Source: Lysobacter enzymogenes
GTDB taxonomy: Bacteria > Pseudomonadota > Gammaproteobacteria > Xanthomonadales > Xanthomonadaceae
Direction: 5' to 3'
Assembly: GCF_900106525.1 (NCBI RefSeq)
Contig: NZ_FNOG01000003.1
Location: 631,987-695,986, forward strand
DNA length: 64,000 bases
The position numbers and the translations under genes are program-made. Numbering within the stretch: position 1 is the first letter of the stretch; every line of letters starts with the position of its first letter. This document shows positions 9,911 through 20,600 of this stretch, one piece after another. Below the pieces are notes generated by a model. That model was not told the origin of the DNA. It made no database searches and saw only the letters and a list, made by a program, of their open reading frames with translations.

Positions 9911-10561
9911 TCAGGCGCCGCGCGCCGGCCAGGCGTTGACGATCTTGCAGAACAGCTCGGCCGTGCGGTTGGTGTCGTACACCGCCGAATGCGCTTCCTC
10001 GCCGTTCCAGACGAAGCCTGCGGCCTGCACCGCGCGCGCCAGCACGGTCTGGCCGTAGGCGACGCCGGCCAGGGTCACGGTGTCGAACACGCTGAAGGGA
10101 TGGAACGGGTTGCGCTTGTGGCCGCTGCGCGCGACCGCGGCGTTGAGGAAGTTGAGGTCGAAGTGGGCGTTGTGGCCGACCAGGATCGCGCGCTGGCAGC
10201 CGTGGCGCTTGACCGCTTCGCGCACCGGCGCGAACACCGCTTCCAGCGCCTGCCGCTCGGGCTTGGCGTCGCGGAAGGGGTGATCGATGTCGATGCCGGT
10301 GACTTCCAGCGACTTGGGGTCGATCAGGGTGCCGGCGGCGGGCACCACGTGCGAACTGGCGACCTCGCCGGGGACCAGGAGGCCGTCGGCGTCGAGCTCG
10401 ATCGGCTGCACGGCGATTTCGAGCAGGGCGTGCTTGTTCCAGTCGAAGCCGCCGGTTTCCACGTCCACGACCACCGGCAGGTAGCCGCGGAAGCGGGTGG
10501 CTAGGGTGGCGGGGACGGGCGCGGCGGAGGCGGCGCTGGGGGCGGGGCCGGGGTCGATCAT
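9911..10561 (-). CDS. rnt: Ribonuclease T
   Basis: 216 aa DEDDh-type 3'-5' exonuclease that trims the 3' ends of tRNA and other stable RNAs. Exo motifs are [12 protein letters not shown] (Asp, Glu), [12 protein letters not shown] (Asp) and [14 protein letters not shown] (His and Asp five apart). The ATG at 10561 (MIDPGPAPS) is preferred; the first 30 residues are Ala/Pro-rich. The adjacent small genes are not related in function. Confidence 0.94.
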
Positions 10562-10616
10562 GGCGGGAAGCCTAGCAAATCGGGGCTCGCCGGTCGCTGG
10601 ATGGCGCGGTTGCGCT

Positions 10617-10725: not shown

Positions 10726-11478
10726 TTAGAAATACACCACGCCGGTGGCGCGCATCTGCCGCAGCAAGGCGGCGCCCATGTCCAGGAACGTGGCTTCGTC
10801 GTCGCTGCCGGCTTCGGCCGCCAGTGCGCGCAGTTGCTCGCGGGCGATCAGTTGCGGCGACTCTTCCAGCCGTTGCAGCAGGCGATAGGCCAGCGGGCTC
10901 AGTTCGGAAAAGCGCACCTCGCCGTCGGCCTCGCGCCGCAGCAGCAGCAAGGTCGGCGTCGGCGGCGGTTGCGCGGGCTGGAAGTCCGGGCCGAGCCGGT
11001 GCACCGGCCAGGCGTAGGCCAGCGGCCAGGCCAGCGGCGACAGGCGCGGCACGTGTTCGAGCAGGCCGGCGTCGCCGATGCCGGCGTCGTCGCGCGCGGC
11101 GGAGGCTTCGCTGAGCTGCAGCGCCAGCTCGACCCATTCGTAATGCGCCAGCTCCAGCAGGAACGGCGGGTCGAGCGCGTCGAGATTCTGCAGGTAGCGC
11201 TGGAACTCGCGCGCGATCTCGGCGAACAGCGGCGTGTGGCAGCGATGGTCGCGGTAGAAATCGCGTACCAACCGCTCCCAGCGTTCCTCGCCGAGAATGC
11301 TTTCGATGACCGGAAAATTGCCCGACAACAGGCTGGCGATGTTGTTGAACAGCAGGTCGCGGTAAATGCTCAGGCGGCGATCTTCGATGCCGGCCGGCGC
11401 AGGGCTGGCGGACGGATCGCGCAAGTGTCGGGTCAGTTCGAACTGTTGCGCGCGCAGGCGCGAGGAGGCGTCGTTCAT
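10726..11478 (-). CDS. hvfC: HvfC/BufC-type MNIO partner protein (DUF2063)
   Basis: 250 aa. The N-terminal DUF2063 domain (about 5-105) reads RLSIYRDLLFNNIASLLSGN, typical of the partner proteins that deliver precursor peptides to DUF692 enzymes. The C-terminal half contains LSPLAYRLLQRLEE, a winged-helix-like segment also seen in the family. Its start lies four bases after the hvfB stop and it is the last gene of the putative operon. In studied systems HvfC/BufC and HvfB/BufB act as a heterodimer; that is family knowledge. Confidence 0.9.
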   Translation of the reverse strand: MNDASSRLRAQQFELTRHLRDPSASPAPAGIEDRRLSIYRDLLFNNIASLLSGNFPVIESILGEERWERLVRDFYRDHRCHTPLFAEIAREFQRYLQNLDALDPPFLLELAHYEWVELALQLSEASAARDDAGIGDAGLLEHVPRLSPLAWPLAYAWPVHRLGPDFQPAQPPPTPTLLLLRREADGEVRFSELSPLAYRLLQRLEESPQLIAREQLRALAAEAGSDDEATFLDMGAALLRQMRATGVVYF

Positions 11479-11482
11479 CGGC

Positions 11483-12367
11483 TCAGGCGTGGGCGCGGCG
11501 GGCGGAGTCGCGCGCGGCCGGCGCGGCGGATTCGCGCAGGATGCGGCGCACCAGGCCCAGTTCGTCGACCAGTTCGGCGTAGGGCGGGAAATTGAAGTCG
11601 CGTTCCAGCAGGGTCGGGCGCGGCCCGAACAGGCGGTAGGCGTCGGCCAACAGATCCCAGACTTCGCGCTTGACCGGCGCGCCGTGGGTGTCGACCTTCA
11701 GATCGTCGGCCTCGTCGTAATGGCCGGCGACGTGCAGATAGGCGATGCGCTCGTGCGGCATCGCGCGGATGAATTCCAGCGCGTCGTAGCGGTGGTTGAT
11801 CGAGTTGACGTAGACGTTGTTGACGTCCAGCAGCAGGTCGCAATCGGCCTCGGCCAGCACCGCGCGGGTGAACTCGATCTCGCTCATTTCCTGGTGCGGC
11901 GCGGCGTAGTAGGAGGCGTTCTCCACCGCGATGCGGCGGCCGACGATGTCCTGGGTGCGGCGGATGCGCGCGGCGACGTGGTGCACGGCTTCCTCGGTGA
12001 ACGGAATCGGCAACAGGTCGTAGAGGTGGCCGTCGTCGCTGCAATAGCTCAGGTGTTCGCTGTAGCAGGCCACGGCGTGTTCGTCGAGGAAGCGGCGCAC
12101 GCGGCCGAGGAATGTCTCGTCCAGCGCAGCGGTGCCGCCCAGCGACAGCGACAGGCCGTGGCAGACCAGCGGATAGCGCGCGGACAGCTCGCGCAGTTGC
12201 TCGCCGTAGCGTCCGCCGACGCCGATCCAGTTTTCCGGCGCGAGTTCGAGGAAATCGAAATCGCGCGCGGCGCCGGGCGCGTGCGGCGCGGACTGCAGCG
12301 GGCCCAGCAGGGCCCGCCGCAGGCCGAGGCCGACGGCATCCGGAGTCAGCGAATGCGTGCGGTCCAC
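11483..12367 (-). CDS. hvfB: HvfB/BufB multinuclear iron oxidase (DUF692, MNIO)
   Basis: 294 aa TIM-barrel MNIO enzyme. Metal-site segments of the DUF692 family are visible: [70 protein letters not shown] and LLERDFNFP. HvfB/BufB proteins use a multi-iron centre and O2 to convert Cys of the HvfA/BufA peptide into heterocyclic, copper-binding groups. Order sigma-hvfA-hvfB-hvfC with gaps of 215, 13 and 4 bases supports one functional unit. Confidence 0.94.
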
Positions 12368-12380
12368 GGTGGTGCCGCGA

Positions 12381-12782
12381 TTACATCGAACCGCCGCACT
12401 TGCCCTCGCCGCACTTGCCTTCGCCCGCCTTCTTGGCGGCCGGGGCAGCGCCCTTCTTGTCGGCGCCGCACTTGCCCTCGCCAGTCTTCTTGTCGGCGCC
12501 GCACTTGCCTTCGCCGCACTTGCCTTCGGCGTGCTTCTTCTTGTCCGCGCCGCACTTGCCCTCGGCTTTCTTCTTGTCGGCGCCGCAGCTGCCTTCGGCC
12601 TTCTTGGCCGCGTCGGTGGCCTTGGCGTCGGCGGCCTTCTCGGCGGTCTGCGCCTGCTGGGCGCCGAGCAGGTAGCCCTGCGACAGGTCGCTCATCGCGA
12701 ACGCGGAGGACGACAGGCTCAGGCCGCCGAGCAGGGTGGCGCTCAGCGCGAGGGCGATGGGCTTGTTGATTTGCTTGGACAT
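12381..12782 (-). CDS. hvfA: HvfA/BufA-type bufferin precursor peptide
   Basis: 133 aa. A Sec signal peptide (about 1-29, cleavage after SSAFA) is followed by a short conserved part ([14 protein letters not shown]) and a Lys/Ala-rich tail bearing seven Cys, six in EGKCG and one in EGSCG. EGKCG Cys are the residues that MNIO enzymes modify in HvfA/bufferin peptides, giving exported copper-chelating products. Translation starts at the ATG 12782 behind AGGAGAGAACCC. Some motifs are back-to-back ([10 protein letters not shown], twice), others separated by ADKK spacers. Confidence 0.93.
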
Positions 12783-12997
12783 GGGTTCTCTCCTGGTGGC
12801 GACGGGCGGGTGCTCCGCCGGTGTTGGTAGACGGGCAGGACCCGCCGGGAAACGCGATTGGTGCGCAGCTTAGATCGATTGCGGGTTAGTGCGGGGTGAC
12901 ATCCGTAACGGCCTGGACAGTTGCCGGGCCTGGGCGGCGGTGCGCGCAGGATGGCTACTGGACGGGAATACGGCGGGGGCCGCGGCGCGGATGCAGC

Positions 12998-13513
12998 TCA
13001 CGGCGACAGATATTCGCGGGCCAGCACCCGGGCGCGGTGCAGGCGCGATTTGACCGCCTCGCGGCTCAGGCTCAGCTCCTCGCCGATCTCGGCCACGGTC
13101 AGGCCTTCCAGGTCGCGCAGCAGGATGATCTGGCGGTAGTGCGCGGGCAGCGACTCCAGGGCGACGGCGACATCGTGGCGCCATTCGGCCGGTTCGGGGG
13201 TGACCACCGGTGCGATCTCGTCGGTGATCGGCTGGCCGCTGAGCAGGCGCCGGCCGCGCTTGAGCCGGTTGCACTCGCGCTTGACGATGCGGAAGGTCCA
13301 GGAGACGAAGCACTCGAGCACGCGCAGGTCGCGCAGCTTGCGCGAAACCGCGATCAGGCTTTCCTGCACCGCGTCCTCGATGTCGTTGATGACGCAGTGG
13401 AATTCGGCGTAGCGGCGCAGGTCCTGGCGCGAGTGCCGCAGCACCCGTTCCAGGGCGGCCGTGTCGCCCGCGCGGGCGGCGGCCAGATCGCCATTGGCCA
13501 GTAACGGCGTCAT
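12998..13513 (-). CDS. ECF RNA polymerase sigma factor upstream of hvfABC
   Basis: 171 aa with only sigma regions 2 (DIEDAVQESLIAVSRKL) and 4 (LTVAEIGEELSLSREAVKSR). The ATG at 13513 (MTPLLANGD) behind GAGGAAC is chosen over an upstream ATG at 13570. It precedes hvfA by 215 bases on the same strand. Bufferin operons are often controlled by linked ECF sigma factors, commonly with an anti-sigma gene; none is visible here, so how it is held inactive is unclear. Role in hvf control is inferred from position. Confidence 0.88.
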   Translation of the reverse strand: MTPLLANGDLAAARAGDTAALERVLRHSRQDLRRYAEFHCVINDIEDAVQESLIAVSRKLRDLRVLECFVSWTFRIVKRECNRLKRGRRLLSGQPITDEIAPVVTPEPAEWRHDVAVALESLPAHYRQIILLRDLEGLTVAEIGEELSLSREAVKSRLHRARVLAREYLSP

Positions 13514-13892
13514 GTCGGGGCGGTTCCTCTCTTGGTCCGTGAAAATACACCCGGCGAAGGGTGCGGGCATGGATCAAGAGGGGGCTGGGGCGCGCACGGA
13601 TTCGCGCCGGGGCCTTGCTACGGCGGCAAGGTTTACCGGGTGTTCAGCGCGGCGGCGCGGTGGAAACGATTGCAGGCGGATCCGGCGATGGCGGCGCGGA
13701 CGTTGCCGCCGACGGACGGCGCGGCAGTCCCGGCCGCATGCTGCGGCGCAGCGCGAGGCCGGCGCGCGCGGCCAAGTGACGGCGAGGTGACGGCCCTGCG
13801 AAACGGCGCCGGCGGCGCAAACGAAACGGCCCGCCGCGATGCCGCGGCGGGCCGGACTCAGCGGGACGGCGGGCGCGCGCGGCGCCCGGCGC
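13514..13892. other. Intergenic region between sigma factor and phoU
   Basis: 379 bases that contain the phoU terminator hairpin near 13821-13853 and otherwise no recognisable feature. Frames across it are low-complexity and unlike genes. Confidence 0.45.
13828..13853 (-). terminator. Probable phoU/pst operon terminator
   Basis: Perfect 11-bp GC stem (13828-13838 with 13843-13853, loop ATGC), followed on the minus strand by GTTTCG. The T tract is short, so termination strength is uncertain. Confidence 0.65.
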
Positions 13893-14603
13893 TCACACCG
13901 ACGCGGTGGTGTTGGTGGTGTCGCGCTTCTCGCGCGGCGGCAGCGGCTCGTCGCCCTTGACCAGGAACCACACGTTCTCGGCGATGTTGGTGGCGTGGTC
14001 GCCGACGCGCTCGATGTTCTTGGCCATGAACAGCAGATGGGTGCAGGCGGTGATGCTGCGCGCGTCTTCCATCATGTAGGTCAGCAGCTCGCGGAACAGG
14101 CCGGTGTAGGCGGTGTCGACCTCGGCGTCGCGGTCGCGCACCCGCTGCGCCAGTTCGATGTCGTTGTCGCGGTAGGCCACCAGCACATCGCGCAGCTGCT
14201 TGACTGCCAGCGTGCCCAGCGCGTGCAGGCCGGCCACGTGCGGCAGTGGCGGCGACAGGTTCAGCGCGGTCGAGCGCTTGGCCACGTTGGCGGCGTAGTC
14301 GCCGACGCGCTCGATGTCGGAGGCGATGCGGATCGCGGCCAGGATCTCGCGCAGGTCGCGCGCCATCGGCCCGCGCAGCGCCAGCTTCATCACGTCGTGG
14401 CTGATCTCCTGCTCCAGCGCGTCGATCGCCTCGTCGTTGGCGATGATGCGCTCGGCGGCCTTGTCGTCGCGGCGCTGGACCACGTCGAGCGCGGATTCCA
14501 GTTGCGCGGCGGCGATCTCGCCCATGCGCAGGGTTTCGTCGAGCAGGCGGCGCTGCTCGTCGTCGTAGCTTTTGACGATGTGGTCGTGCATCTGGTTGCT
14601 CAT
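13893..14603 (-). CDS. phoU: Phosphate uptake regulator PhoU
   Basis: 236 aa. Two three-helix PhoU repeats each carry the metal-binding motif: SDIERVGDYAANVAK and KNIERVGDHATNIAE. PhoU links the Pst transporter to the PhoR/PhoB two-component system and represses the Pho regulon when phosphate is ample. It is the last gene of the pst operon, separated from pstB by a 136-base gap that contains a repeat, which may lower or separate its expression. Confidence 0.96.
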   Translation of the reverse strand: MSNQMHDHIVKSYDDEQRRLLDETLRMGEIAAAQLESALDVVQRRDDKAAERIIANDEAIDALEQEISHDVMKLALRGPMARDLREILAAIRIASDIERVGDYAANVAKRSTALNLSPPLPHVAGLHALGTLAVKQLRDVLVAYRDNDIELAQRVRDRDAEVDTAYTGLFRELLTYMMEDARSITACTHLLFMAKNIERVGDHATNIAENVWFLVKGDEPLPPREKRDTTNTTASV

Positions 14604-17766: not shown

Positions 17767-18852
17767 TCACTTGAACTCCGCCCCCCAATACGCCTCGATC
17801 TGCTTCACCAGTTCCGGCGGCAGCGGCACGTAGTCCAGCGCTTGCGCCTGGGTCTGGCCGTTCTCGAAGGCCCACTTGAAGAACGCGCGCGCGTCGCTGC
17901 TGCGCTTGGCGTCCTTGGGCTGCTTGTACATCAGGATGAAATTGGTCGCGGTGATCGGCCAGGACTTCTCGCCGCTGGCGTTGGTGATGACCAGGTTGAA
18001 GTCCTTGGCGCTGGCCCAGTCGGCGGTGGAGGCCGCGGCCTGGAACGATTCGGCGCTGGGCTGGACGAACTGGCCGGCCGCGTTCTGCAACTGGGTGTGG
18101 GCCATCTTGTTCTGCAGCGCGTAGGCCAGTTCGACGTAGCCGACCGAGCCCTTGATCTGCTTCACGTACGAGGCCACGCCTTCGTTGCCCTTGCCGCCGA
18201 CGCCGCCCGGCCACTGCACCGAGGTGCCTTCGCCGACCTTGGTCTTCCACTCCGGGCTGACCTTGGACAGGTAGTTGGAGAAGTTGAAGGTGGTGCCCGA
18301 ACCGTCGGAGCGGTGCACGACGTTGATCTTGAGGTCGGGCAGGGTCGTGCCCGGGTTGGCCGCGGCGATGGCCGCGTCGTTCCACTTGGCGATCTTGCCC
18401 ATGAAGATGTCGGCCAGCAGCGGGCCGGTCAGGCGCAGCTTGCCGGCGTCGATGCCCTCGACGTTGACCACCGGCACCACGCCGCCGATCGCCGAGGGGA
18501 ACTGGCCCAGGCCCGCGGCGGCGAGCTCGTCGCTCGGCAGCGGCTTGTCGGACGAGCCGAAGTCGACCGTGCCGGCCTTGATCTGGGCGATGCCGCCGCC
18601 GGAGCCGATCGACTGGTAGTTGACCTTGGCGCCGGTGGCCTTGTTGTAGTCGTCCGACCACTTCGACAGCAGCGGGAAGATGAAGGTGGCGCCGGCGCCG
18701 GTGATCTGCGCGGCGACCTTGTCGCCAGCGGGCGCGGCCGCGTCGGTCTTGGCGTCGCCGGCCGGAGCCGGGTTCTGCGGGTTGCCGCCGCAGGCAGCGA
18801 CGGCCAGCGCGATGGCGAGGGAGAGGACGGCGGTGCGGGCCGACGATTTCAT
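17767..18852 (-). CDS. pstS: Phosphate-binding lipoprotein PstS (copy next to pstC)
   Basis: 361 aa. The lipobox LAVAAC puts the acylated Cys at about residue 19, so this copy is probably membrane-anchored. Phosphate-contact segments are GAGATFIFPLLSKW, IGSGGGIAQIKAGTVDFGSS and HRSDGSGTTFNF. The ATG at 18852 is chosen because GGAG lies seven bases before it; another ATG four codons upstream is possible. A Pho-box-like array lies about 55 bases upstream. Confidence 0.95.
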   Translation of the reverse strand: MKSSARTAVLSLAIALAVAACGGNPQNPAPAGDAKTDAAAPAGDKVAAQITGAGATFIFPLLSKWSDDYNKATGAKVNYQSIGSGGGIAQIKAGTVDFGSSDKPLPSDELAAAGLGQFPSAIGGVVPVVNVEGIDAGKLRLTGPLLADIFMGKIAKWNDAAIAAANPGTTLPDLKINVVHRSDGSGTTFNFSNYLSKVSPEWKTKVGEGTSVQWPGGVGGKGNEGVASYVKQIKGSVGYVELAYALQNKMAHTQLQNAAGQFVQPSAESFQAAASTADWASAKDFNLVITNASGEKSWPITATNFILMYKQPKDAKRSSDARAFFKWAFENGQTQAQALDYVPLPPELVKQIEAYWGAEFK

Positions 18853-18906
18853 GCGGTGCTCCATCAAAGGGAGGCCGGCTGGGCGCCGGCTGGGTGGCGC
18901 CATTTG

Positions 18907-19425: not shown

Positions 19426-20445
19426 TCAATAGCTCATGTTCGCCTGCCAGTAGGTCTCGATCTGCTTGACCAGCGCGTCGGGCAGCGGCACGTAGTCGAG
19501 CGTCTTGGCCTGCGCATCGCCGTTGGCGTAGACCCACTTGAAGAATTCCTTGGCGTTCTTGGCGCCTTCGGCGTTCTTGGGCTGCTTGTACATCAGGATG
19601 AAGTTGGTCGCGGTGATCGGCCAGGAGTTCTCGCCCGGCGCGTTGGTCATGACCAGGTAGAAGTCCTTCGAGTTCGCCCAGTCGGCGCTGGCGGCGGCGG
19701 CCGAGAAGGTCTCGTCGGTCGGCAGCACGAACTTGCCGTCGGCGTTCTTCAGGCGCGAATAGGCCATCTTGTTCTGCAGCGCGTAGGACAGCTCGACGTA
19801 GCCGATGCCGCCCTGGATCTGCTTGACGTAAGCGGCCACGCCTTCGTTGCCCTTGCCGCCGATGCCGGTCGGCCACTTCACCGCGGTGCCTTCGCCGACC
19901 GAGGTCTTCCACTCCGGGCTGACCTTGGACAGGTAGTTGACGAAGTTGAAGGTGGTGCCCGAACCGTCGGAGCGGTGCACGACGGTGATCTTCTTCTCCG
20001 GCAGCTTGACGCCGCCGTTGAGCGCGATGATCGCCGGATCGTTCCACATGGTGATCTTGCCGAGGAAGATGTTGGCCAGGGTCGCGCCGTCGAGCTTCAT
20101 CGCGCCCGAAGCCACGCCCGGCACGTTGATCACCGGCACCACGCCGCCGATCACCGACGGGAACTGGGCGAGACCGAACTTGGCCAGCTCTTCGGGCTTG
20201 AGCGGAGCGTCGGAAGAACCGAAGTCCACGGTCGCCGCCTTGATCTGGGCGATGCCGCCGCCGGAACCGATCGACTGGTAGTTGACCTTCTTGTTGGTCG
20301 CCTTGGCGTAATCGGCCGACCACTTCGACATCACCGGGTAGACGAACGACGCGCCGGCGCCGGTCACGTCGGCCGCCTGAGCGTTGAGCGCGAAGGCAGT
20401 GGTCAGCGCGAGCGCGGCGAAACGGAGCTTGAGGAGCTTGTGCAT
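19426..20445 (-). CDS. pstS: Periplasmic phosphate-binding protein PstS (second copy)
   Basis: 339 aa. A standard signal peptide (MHKLLKLRFAALALTTAFA, cleavage near residue 24) and no lipobox suggest a soluble form, unlike the neighbouring copy. The binding motifs GAGASFVYPVMSKW, SIGSGGGIAQIKAATVDFGS and RSDGSGTTFNFVNYLS are intact and the two proteins align closely along their length, pointing to tandem duplication. ATG at 20445 chosen by signal peptide. It has its own Pho-box-like array and its own terminator. Confidence 0.95.
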   Translation of the reverse strand: MHKLLKLRFAALALTTAFALNAQAADVTGAGASFVYPVMSKWSADYAKATNKKVNYQSIGSGGGIAQIKAATVDFGSSDAPLKPEELAKFGLAQFPSVIGGVVPVINVPGVASGAMKLDGATLANIFLGKITMWNDPAIIALNGGVKLPEKKITVVHRSDGSGTTFNFVNYLSKVSPEWKTSVGEGTAVKWPTGIGGKGNEGVAAYVKQIQGGIGYVELSYALQNKMAYSRLKNADGKFVLPTDETFSAAAASADWANSKDFYLVMTNAPGENSWPITATNFILMYKQPKNAEGAKNAKEFFKWVYANGDAQAKTLDYVPLPDALVKQIETYWQANMSY

Positions 20446-20496
20446 GGGTTTCCCTGGAGTGTGAGTGCGGACACGTTCCGCCCTGCGCGCTATTTC

Positions 20497-20525
20497 ATAA
20501 CGGTTTGGTGACATTTCCGTGTCAG
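20497..20525 (-). promoter_or_regulatory. Pho-box-like array upstream of second pstS
   Basis: On the minus strand CTGACAC, ATGTCAC and CCGTTAT are spaced by GGAA and CAAA, giving the 7+4 PhoB pattern. It ends about 52 bases before the start codon. Confidence 0.65.
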
Positions 20526-20600
20526 CGCAGCAGGAACCGGCATCGGCGGCATAGGCGGCGACTGAATGGGGCGCAGAAGCGCTCTGCGCGCGCCGCATCG

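Follow-up and report, generated by a model that had tools for sequence, protein, structure and literature searches.

Operons encoding a precursor peptide with EGKCG motifs, a multinuclear non-heme iron-dependent oxidase (MNIO) and a partner protein are known from several bacteria, and for EGKCG products both thiooxazole formation and copper binding have been reported (PMC13097082), the thiooxazole assignment being made also in PMC13419390 (statements on published work refer here and below to the accessible portions of the sources cited). Published control of MNIO-derived metallophore operons by extracytoplasmic function (ECF) sigma factors involves an anti-sigma factor: a homologous operon of Haemophilus influenzae is under the ECF factor RpoE2, which has the anti-sigma HrsE (PMC7907618), and another in S. 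meliloti is under RpoE7/EcfR7 (PMC6180224). A survey of MNIO clusters records sigma factor and NrsF genes in Buf1 but not in Buf2 clusters, and for EGKCG clusters its accessible part lists nothing beyond the core genes except two rare additions (PMC12452194); the ORFs (open reading frames) flanking one such cluster, mmrABC, were judged unrelated (PMC12538549). Here we describe a locus of Lysobacter enzymogenes in which an ECF sigma factor gene precedes hvfA, hvfB and hvfC, with no anti-sigma gene adjoining. It lies in a stretch of 64,000 nucleotides (the window, to which all coordinates refer unless a locus is named), part of one contig of a 6.26 Mb genome. The locus is probably a chromosomal captophorin locus, that is, one for an EGKCG-type ribosomally synthesized and post-translationally modified peptide (RiPP), served by an ECF sigma factor of its own, which is without a linked anti-sigma and would connect stress to a copper-binding peptide.

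The sigma factor gene and its tie to hvfABC

The four genes lie on the minus strand in the order sigma factor, precursor, MNIO and partner, just as the initial annotation had them. The sigma factor gene (12998..13513, assigned from the ORF list, family scans and alignment) encodes 171 amino acids and lacks a C-terminal extension; its ORF spans 12998-13570, and the ATG at 13513 was taken as the start in agreement with the starts of relatives. The product exceeds the cut-offs for sigma-70 region 4 (58.7 bits, cut-off 25.7) and for the sigma70-ECF superfamily (67.4, cut-off 42.9), and stays just under that for region 2 (22.8 bits, cut-off 24), a region which in the predicted structure resembles region 2 of E. 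coli sigmaE (4lup; template modeling score 0.80 by target, root-mean-square deviation 2.5). Judged by these matches and by a predicted fold like that of sigmaE, the protein is an ECF sigma factor that consists of sigma regions 2 and 4 and nothing more. Between it and hvfA lies an intergenic stretch of 215 bp (12783..12997, minus strand) in which neither an anti-sigma ORF nor a promoter was recognized.

The precursor gene hvfA (12381..12782, minus strand; ORF list and NCBIfam) encodes 133 amino acids with a Sec-type N-terminus ending in AFA, the signal peptide being judged by eye. It contains exactly seven cysteines, one in EGSCG followed by six in EGKCG, the count given by the initial annotation, and these make up a putative modifiable core at 12384..12596 (minus strand). 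NCBIfam recognizes a KCGExKCG_twice domain (56.8 bits, cut-off 19.5). The maturase gene hvfB (11483..12367, minus strand) has a GTG start and encodes a DUF692 MNIO of 294 amino acids, with LDVNN at 180 and DTH at 226, whereas hvfC (10726..11478, minus strand) encodes a DUF2063/PME1 partner protein of 250 amino acids; both were assigned by Pfam, NCBIfam and alignment. Their scores on the corresponding NCBIfam models (429.5 bits for HvfB, cut-off 360; 306.5 for HvfC, cut-off 142) bear out the enzyme and partner first proposed. HvfB can be aligned to Histophilus 3BWW, the alignment taking in both DVNN...NH and VDTHG, and HvfC to gonococcal NGO1945 (3DEE). Residues N175, D242 and H244 are essential in H. 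influenzae HvfB (PMC13419390); their counterparts would fall within the DVNN and DTH stretches of the window's HvfB.

By sequence, then, hvfABC is a member of the known EGKCG captophorins, which include oxazolin and fontiphorin, and its product is likely to be a copper-binding 5-thiooxazole peptide, the chemistry and the copper binding being transferred from the literature on HvfA and FonA. The initial annotation had spoken of an HvfA-HvfB-HvfC system and, in the same breath, of a bufferin: family scans uphold the first description and not the second. We rejected a bufferin in the strict sense (Buf1 or Buf2) because the precursor has neither a Pfam nor a BufA-type NCBIfam match and the MNIO reaches only 262.9 bits on the BufB model (cut-off 310).

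The tie between sigma factor and operon was examined in a family sample of 149 genomes, in which the sigma factor (E <= 1e-15) was found in 41 and an MNIO (E <= 0.001) in 118. Forty sigma loci were fetched and searched by tblastn: 35 have a match to hvfA, 35 to hvfB, 34 to hvfC and 15 to doxX. All three hvf genes follow the sigma gene in 33 of the 40 (the complete loci), and it is on this ground that the grouping of sigma factor and hvfABC exceeds chance. Three of the five loci outside the 35 with an hvfB-like MNIO are accounted for by a contig that ends after hvfA (L072) and by MNIOs that lie ~2 kb away and divergent (L073, L074). Contig ends also cut L036, and L062 sits on a 9.4-kb contig. 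Precursors of the EGKCG type downstream of the sigma gene carry four to eleven motifs each in relatives and frequently have an EF-hand-like insert, which the HvfA of the window does not (both by eye).

MNIO genes of another class accompany the same sigma family. In L060 the sigma gene is followed by genes for a bufferin precursor that matches DUF2282 (68.9 in Pfam, cut-off 22.4) and falls short of NCBIfam BufA2 (34.5, cut-off 60), for a BufB-type MNIO (378.5, cut-off 310) and, by reading, for a partner and a DoxX protein. A BufB-type MNIO (388.5) and a DoxX gene stand directly before the sigma gene in L108 (Burkholderiales); in L224, from another family of the order, an MNIO sharing 72% identity with the L108 enzyme and a weak DoxX match (E 1.5e-4) occupy that place. 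BufB-type MNIOs (379.3 and 376.1) lie ~2 kb from the sigma gene and divergent in L216 and L217. Operons of both MNIO classes, HvfB and BufB, thus accompany the sigma family. Small secreted cysteine-rich proteins with KCGAKC-like motifs, not of the EGKCG type, are encoded ~3.8-4.1 kb after the sigma start in L060 and, on the minus strand, ~2.1-2.3 kb before the sigma gene in L090.

The absence of a DoxX-like HvfD gene nearby was noted in the initial annotation and holds: Pfam and NCBIfam scans found neither a DoxX nor an anti-sigma gene adjoining the operon, whose neighbors are instead genes for RNase T (9911..10564, minus strand, downstream) and PhoU (13893..14603, minus strand, upstream), both outside the system. 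The suggestion that this absence sets the locus apart from described ones does not survive comparison, since 19 of the 33 complete relatives are likewise without a doxX match. The neighborhood comparison that had been proposed shows DoxX to vary by lineage (14 of the 33), even within Lysobacter (present in L039 and L041, absent from L037 and L038), so that presence or absence of hvfD is a lineage feature; a linked anti-sigma is missing from the syntenic relatives as well. The RNase T and PhoU genes recur in 32 and 20 of the 33 complete loci, respectively, indicating that the sigma-hvfABC unit often occupies one chromosomal place. ORF listings of the gene contexts cover 10 of the 40 family loci and 22 of the 80 named loci described below. 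Two adjacent genes near phoU, at 17767-18903 and 19426-20598, encode proteins of phosphate-binding-like type (PBP_like_2, 134.6 and 145.8 bits), for which the name PstS is given by eye only.

A second EGKCG cluster is present in the same genome (L002, C6:39109-42891) and holds its one further MNIO. This MNIO is of the HvfB type (414.1, cut-off 360), and its partner is of the HvfC type (280, cut-off 142). The precursor of the cluster matches both EF-hands (40.2, cut-off 25.9) and KCGExKCG (27.7, cut-off 19.5). Also encoded there are DoxX (70.3 bits, cut-off 23.6) and a membrane protein that resembles ferric reductases (39.2, cut-off 28). The genome has two more DoxX matches beyond this cluster.

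An invariant cysteine pair in region 2

The family alignment of the sigma factor comprises 41 sequences, that of the window and those of 40 loci from 39 other genomes; it excludes G023, where the sigma factor is in two pieces with stops, and a second, weak match in G027 (39% identity). Residues H39, C40 and C81 are invariant in all 41. In the window the codon of C40, preceded by that of H39, is at 13394..13396 and that of C81 at 13271..13273, both on the minus strand and both placed by alignment and predicted structure. C68 was considered as the third member of a cysteine triad and rejected, being present in only 13 of the 41. The interrupted gene of G023 (L219, G023:C213) consists of two matched pieces, one with two stops inside, and has an MNIO ~0.6 kb off; it reflects either decay of the gene or faulty assembly.

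A profile of the window's sigma family, scanned with patterns free of both cysteines, led to 491 confirmed relatives, the best 80 of which constitute our named loci; at a threshold of 70% identity they and the window's sequence fall into 41 clusters. Not one of the 80 lacks C40 or C81, and position 39 is histidine in 33. Five columns are invariant over the 81 sequences (C40, Q50, L53, W72 and C81) and nine over the alignment of 78 of these rows (A2), from which L131 (cut), L139 and L143 (long) were omitted, though all three were kept in the motif count. In 12 of the 13 best-matching named loci, all 12 from Lysobacter, Pseudoxanthomonas, Arenimonas, Luteimonas and related records, the sigma gene is accompanied by hvfB and hvfC; the exception is L086.

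The pair was also sought in other proteins of the genome. For this comparison 30 of 39 region-4 matches were used, some of them perhaps not sigma factors; 22 besides the window's sigma factor could be aligned, and of the 12 aligned at both positions none carries the pair. L167 has a cysteine at the second position, the first being unaligned. The pair is carried by three plasmid homologues and is missing from the ECF16-like sigma factor that neighbors the homologue in L116. One homologue with the pair (L220:7932-8459, 48% identity) is on an E. coli IncC plasmid, with a gene of the DoxX family ~8 kb away, and further ones are listed for enterobacterial plasmids related to it, for which cattle or milk is a frequent source.

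In an AlphaFold model of the sigma factor (mean predicted local distance difference test score 81.3, predicted template modeling score (pTM) 0.53), C40 is placed in the turn that joins helix 18-39 to helix 42-62, ahead of the region 2.2 helix and beside the position of the DAED motif (N43-D47), and C81 inside helix 66-92, which belongs to regions 2.3-2.4. The protein ends in REYLSP and has no cysteine after C81. A review of non-canonical ECF factors describes C-terminal metal domains, phosphorylation, proteolysis and, for ECF57, a possible cysteine link between sigma2 and sigma4, and its accessible text has no pair inside region 2 (PMC8999054); a literature search of partial coverage likewise returned no description of a cysteine sensor pair like C40/C81 in a sigma factor.

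Outside the hvf loci the sigma factor has another frequent neighbor. Of the 80 named loci, 43 have a match to a YgaP-like membrane protein close to the sigma gene, with few exceptions immediately before it; 13 have an MNIO match, none has both, and 24, including most of the actinobacterial ones, have neither. The label rests on Pfam for three examples, and one plasmid example is annotated as DUF2892. The two contexts do not wholly exclude each other, since L216, which is not among the named loci, has an MNIO together with an ORF that reads as YgaP-like. The small membrane protein has a C-x-x-C near its end (L089, L090, L116 and others; L221:4693-4917, from Novosphingobium). No match to YgaP-like_TM (PF11127) was found in the L. 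enzymogenes genome at E <= 0.001.

These contexts allow a broader, tentative reading: a sensor made of the region 2 cysteine pair would be built into a whole clade of sigma factors, which record titles place in Pseudomonadota, Actinomycetota, Myxococcota and others, sparing them an anti-sigma, and the clade would be tied to copper-binding thiooxazole peptides at a single chromosomal site between phoU and rnt in this family and to a small YgaP-like membrane thiol protein elsewhere. We consider this unlikely as it stands.

Control of the sigma factor

The course of events that we envisage begins with stress, in the form of copper, another thiophilic metal or oxidants, which would activate the sigma factor. 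The activated factor would direct transcription of hvfABC, a step suggested by linkage. HvfC and HvfB would then act on the cysteines of full-length HvfA and convert those of EGKCG into 5-thiooxazoles; Sec would export the peptide, and its modified cysteines would bind copper outside the cytoplasm. The gene content, the family memberships, the link between sigma factor and MNIO, the lack of a linked anti-sigma and the invariance of C40 and C81 are observed, and on them this account is built.

That no anti-sigma gene lies nearby, as first reported from the window, applies equally to its syntenic relatives. The distance from the sigma stop to hvfA is 13-230 bp in the 33 complete family loci and at most 119 bp in 30 of them, which leaves little or no room for such a gene. 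When ORFs of at least 40 amino acids in the 700 bp before the sigma gene were compared across loci, the 15 most widely shared proved to be pieces of PhoU. NrsF (PF06532) has no match in the genome at E <= 0.001 and none beside the locus. Among the fetched loci anti-sigma models were used on L116, where an NrsF gene does precede the sigma gene of the clade, but follows an ECF16-like sigma gene of its own, with a YgaP-like gene intervening.

Several observations weigh against the proposed locus function. HvfA misses the NCBIfam equivalog model of that name (46.8 bits, cut-off 95), although the EGKCG family is in print defined by its motif and not by this narrow model. No MNIO was found near the sigma gene in two of the 40 family loci (L062 and L075), nor beside it in L086 and L223. 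With an MNIO in 118 and the sigma factor in 41 of the 149 genomes, most MNIO-bearing members of the family do without the sigma factor; outside the family the link is rare, since 12 of the 13 named loci with an MNIO match are hvf loci whose records bear Lysobacter-like or related titles. No spaced pair of short motifs common to the regions upstream of the sigma gene and of hvfA of the same locus turned up in more than one of 30 loci, and 20 shuffles gave the same result; the test is weak because several of the hvfA upstream stretches measure only 13-60 bases. The DNA therefore supports neither autoregulation nor control of hvfA by the sigma factor, and an autoregulated ECF promoter was accordingly rejected as a candidate.

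How the activity of the sigma factor is set admits more than one explanation. It may have no sensor of its own, its amount being governed by a stress-responsive promoter of the sigma gene, in the manner of EcfQ, a member of ECF33 without a linked anti-sigma. Upstream of the sigma gene certain stretches do recur among relatives (CTGAAC in 16 of 30, ACTCTTGG in 9 of 30), and ecfQ is strongly induced by H2O2 from a promoter region that is conserved (PMC3420878). Yet these stretches may equally represent an ordinary promoter or shared descent, EcfQ is likened to the clade from context and not by sequence, and the cysteine pair is left without explanation; we regard control by supply as quite possible, if short of probable. 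Alternatively, the sigma factor may do its own sensing: C40 and C81, joined by H39 in the branch of the window, would bind a thiophilic metal or form a disulfide and so alter the contact of region 2 with RNA polymerase or promoter, with no need of an anti-sigma. A built-in cysteine switch of this kind is plausible. The two cysteines supply two of the five columns that persist through 81 sequences, they are absent from the 12 comparable proteins of the genome and from the ECF16-like neighbor in L116, and C40 adjoins the DAED position, at which a residue of ECF43 serves as a phosphorylation switch (PMC8999054). Against this, the pTM of the model is only 0.53, invariant cysteines could be structural, conservation is known within the best 80 of 491 relatives only, and the YgaP-like gene beside the sigma gene in 43 of those 80 could encode the true sensor or brake. 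Direct sensing thus remains doubtful in our estimation.

An anti-sigma or other trans-acting protein encoded elsewhere could also control the factor, given that related hvf or DUF692 operons are under ECF factors with anti-sigmas of the ZAS or NrsF type (PMC7907618, PMC6180224) and that genomic context is blind to unlinked partners. The genome-wide search, which covered NrsF and YgaP-like_TM, yielded no match to either, and both the narrow sigma-hvfA gap and the PhoU fragments that make up the most widely shared upstream ORFs count against it; we think such control unlikely. A different objection concerns the product: the operon might make a metallophore for another metal or serve redox defense rather than copper buffering, as responses of homologous operons to hypochlorite (PMC7907618) and to gold and oxidants (PMC13097082) could suggest. 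The characterized products of such operons generally bind copper (PMC13097082), and we hold this alternative to be distinctly improbable.

A sigma factor that itself sensed metal or redox state would amount to a switch made of one protein and would offer a mechanism for a sigma clade of several phyla. If direct sensing is false, the locus would still be a useful example, repeated across the family, of captophorin genes that have a sigma factor to themselves.

Comparison with described systems

The oxazolin operon hvfABC-hvfX of H. influenzae shares with this locus an EGKCG precursor with a Sec signal, an HvfB MNIO and an HvfC partner, but it includes a DoxX-like HvfX, and its RpoE2 is encoded elsewhere together with HrsE, a ZAS anti-sigma of 67 amino acids (PMC7907618, PMC13419390). 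Fontiphorin (fonABC of Fontimonas thermophila) is alike in its EGKCG precursor, with seven modified sites, and in its MNIO and PME1 protein; it differs in that the accessible text mentions no linked sigma factor, and a form of FonA with two repeats lost 8 Da, or 4 Da for each site (PMC13097082). The mmrABC genes of Microbulbifer encode an EGKCG precursor with five to eight cysteines, an MNIO and a partner, the main text giving no DoxX; that text names no sigma factor either, unlike the present locus (PMC12538549).

An ECF sigma factor beside, or in control of, an MNIO operon is found in the Buf1 loci with SigF/NrsF and in S. meliloti with RpoE7/EcfR7. There, however, the Buf1 precursor is of the DUF2282 type and the sigma factor, of group ECF16, comes with an anti-sigma (PMC12452194, PMC6180224), whereas the L. 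enzymogenes genome has no NrsF match. EcfQ and Blr3042 (ECF33, Bradyrhizobium) offer another likeness: EcfQ lacks a linked anti-sigma, and the clade member of L116 (B. erythrophlei) lies beside an ECF16-NrsF pair much as Blr3042, by locus number, lies near ecfF-osrA. They are not described as linked to an MNIO, and the likeness to the clade is drawn from the context of L116 only. CorE and CorE2 of Myxococcus xanthus are metal-responsive ECF factors without an anti-sigma, but they rely on a cysteine-rich domain at the C-terminus and on a linker CXC (PMC8999054); the sigma factor described here has neither, and the lack of the C-terminal domain led us to reject CorE-like sensing. Seen against these systems, the peptide is of a kind already known; what is new is a conserved ECF factor with no linked anti-sigma and with an invariant cysteine pair, placed beside MNIO operons.

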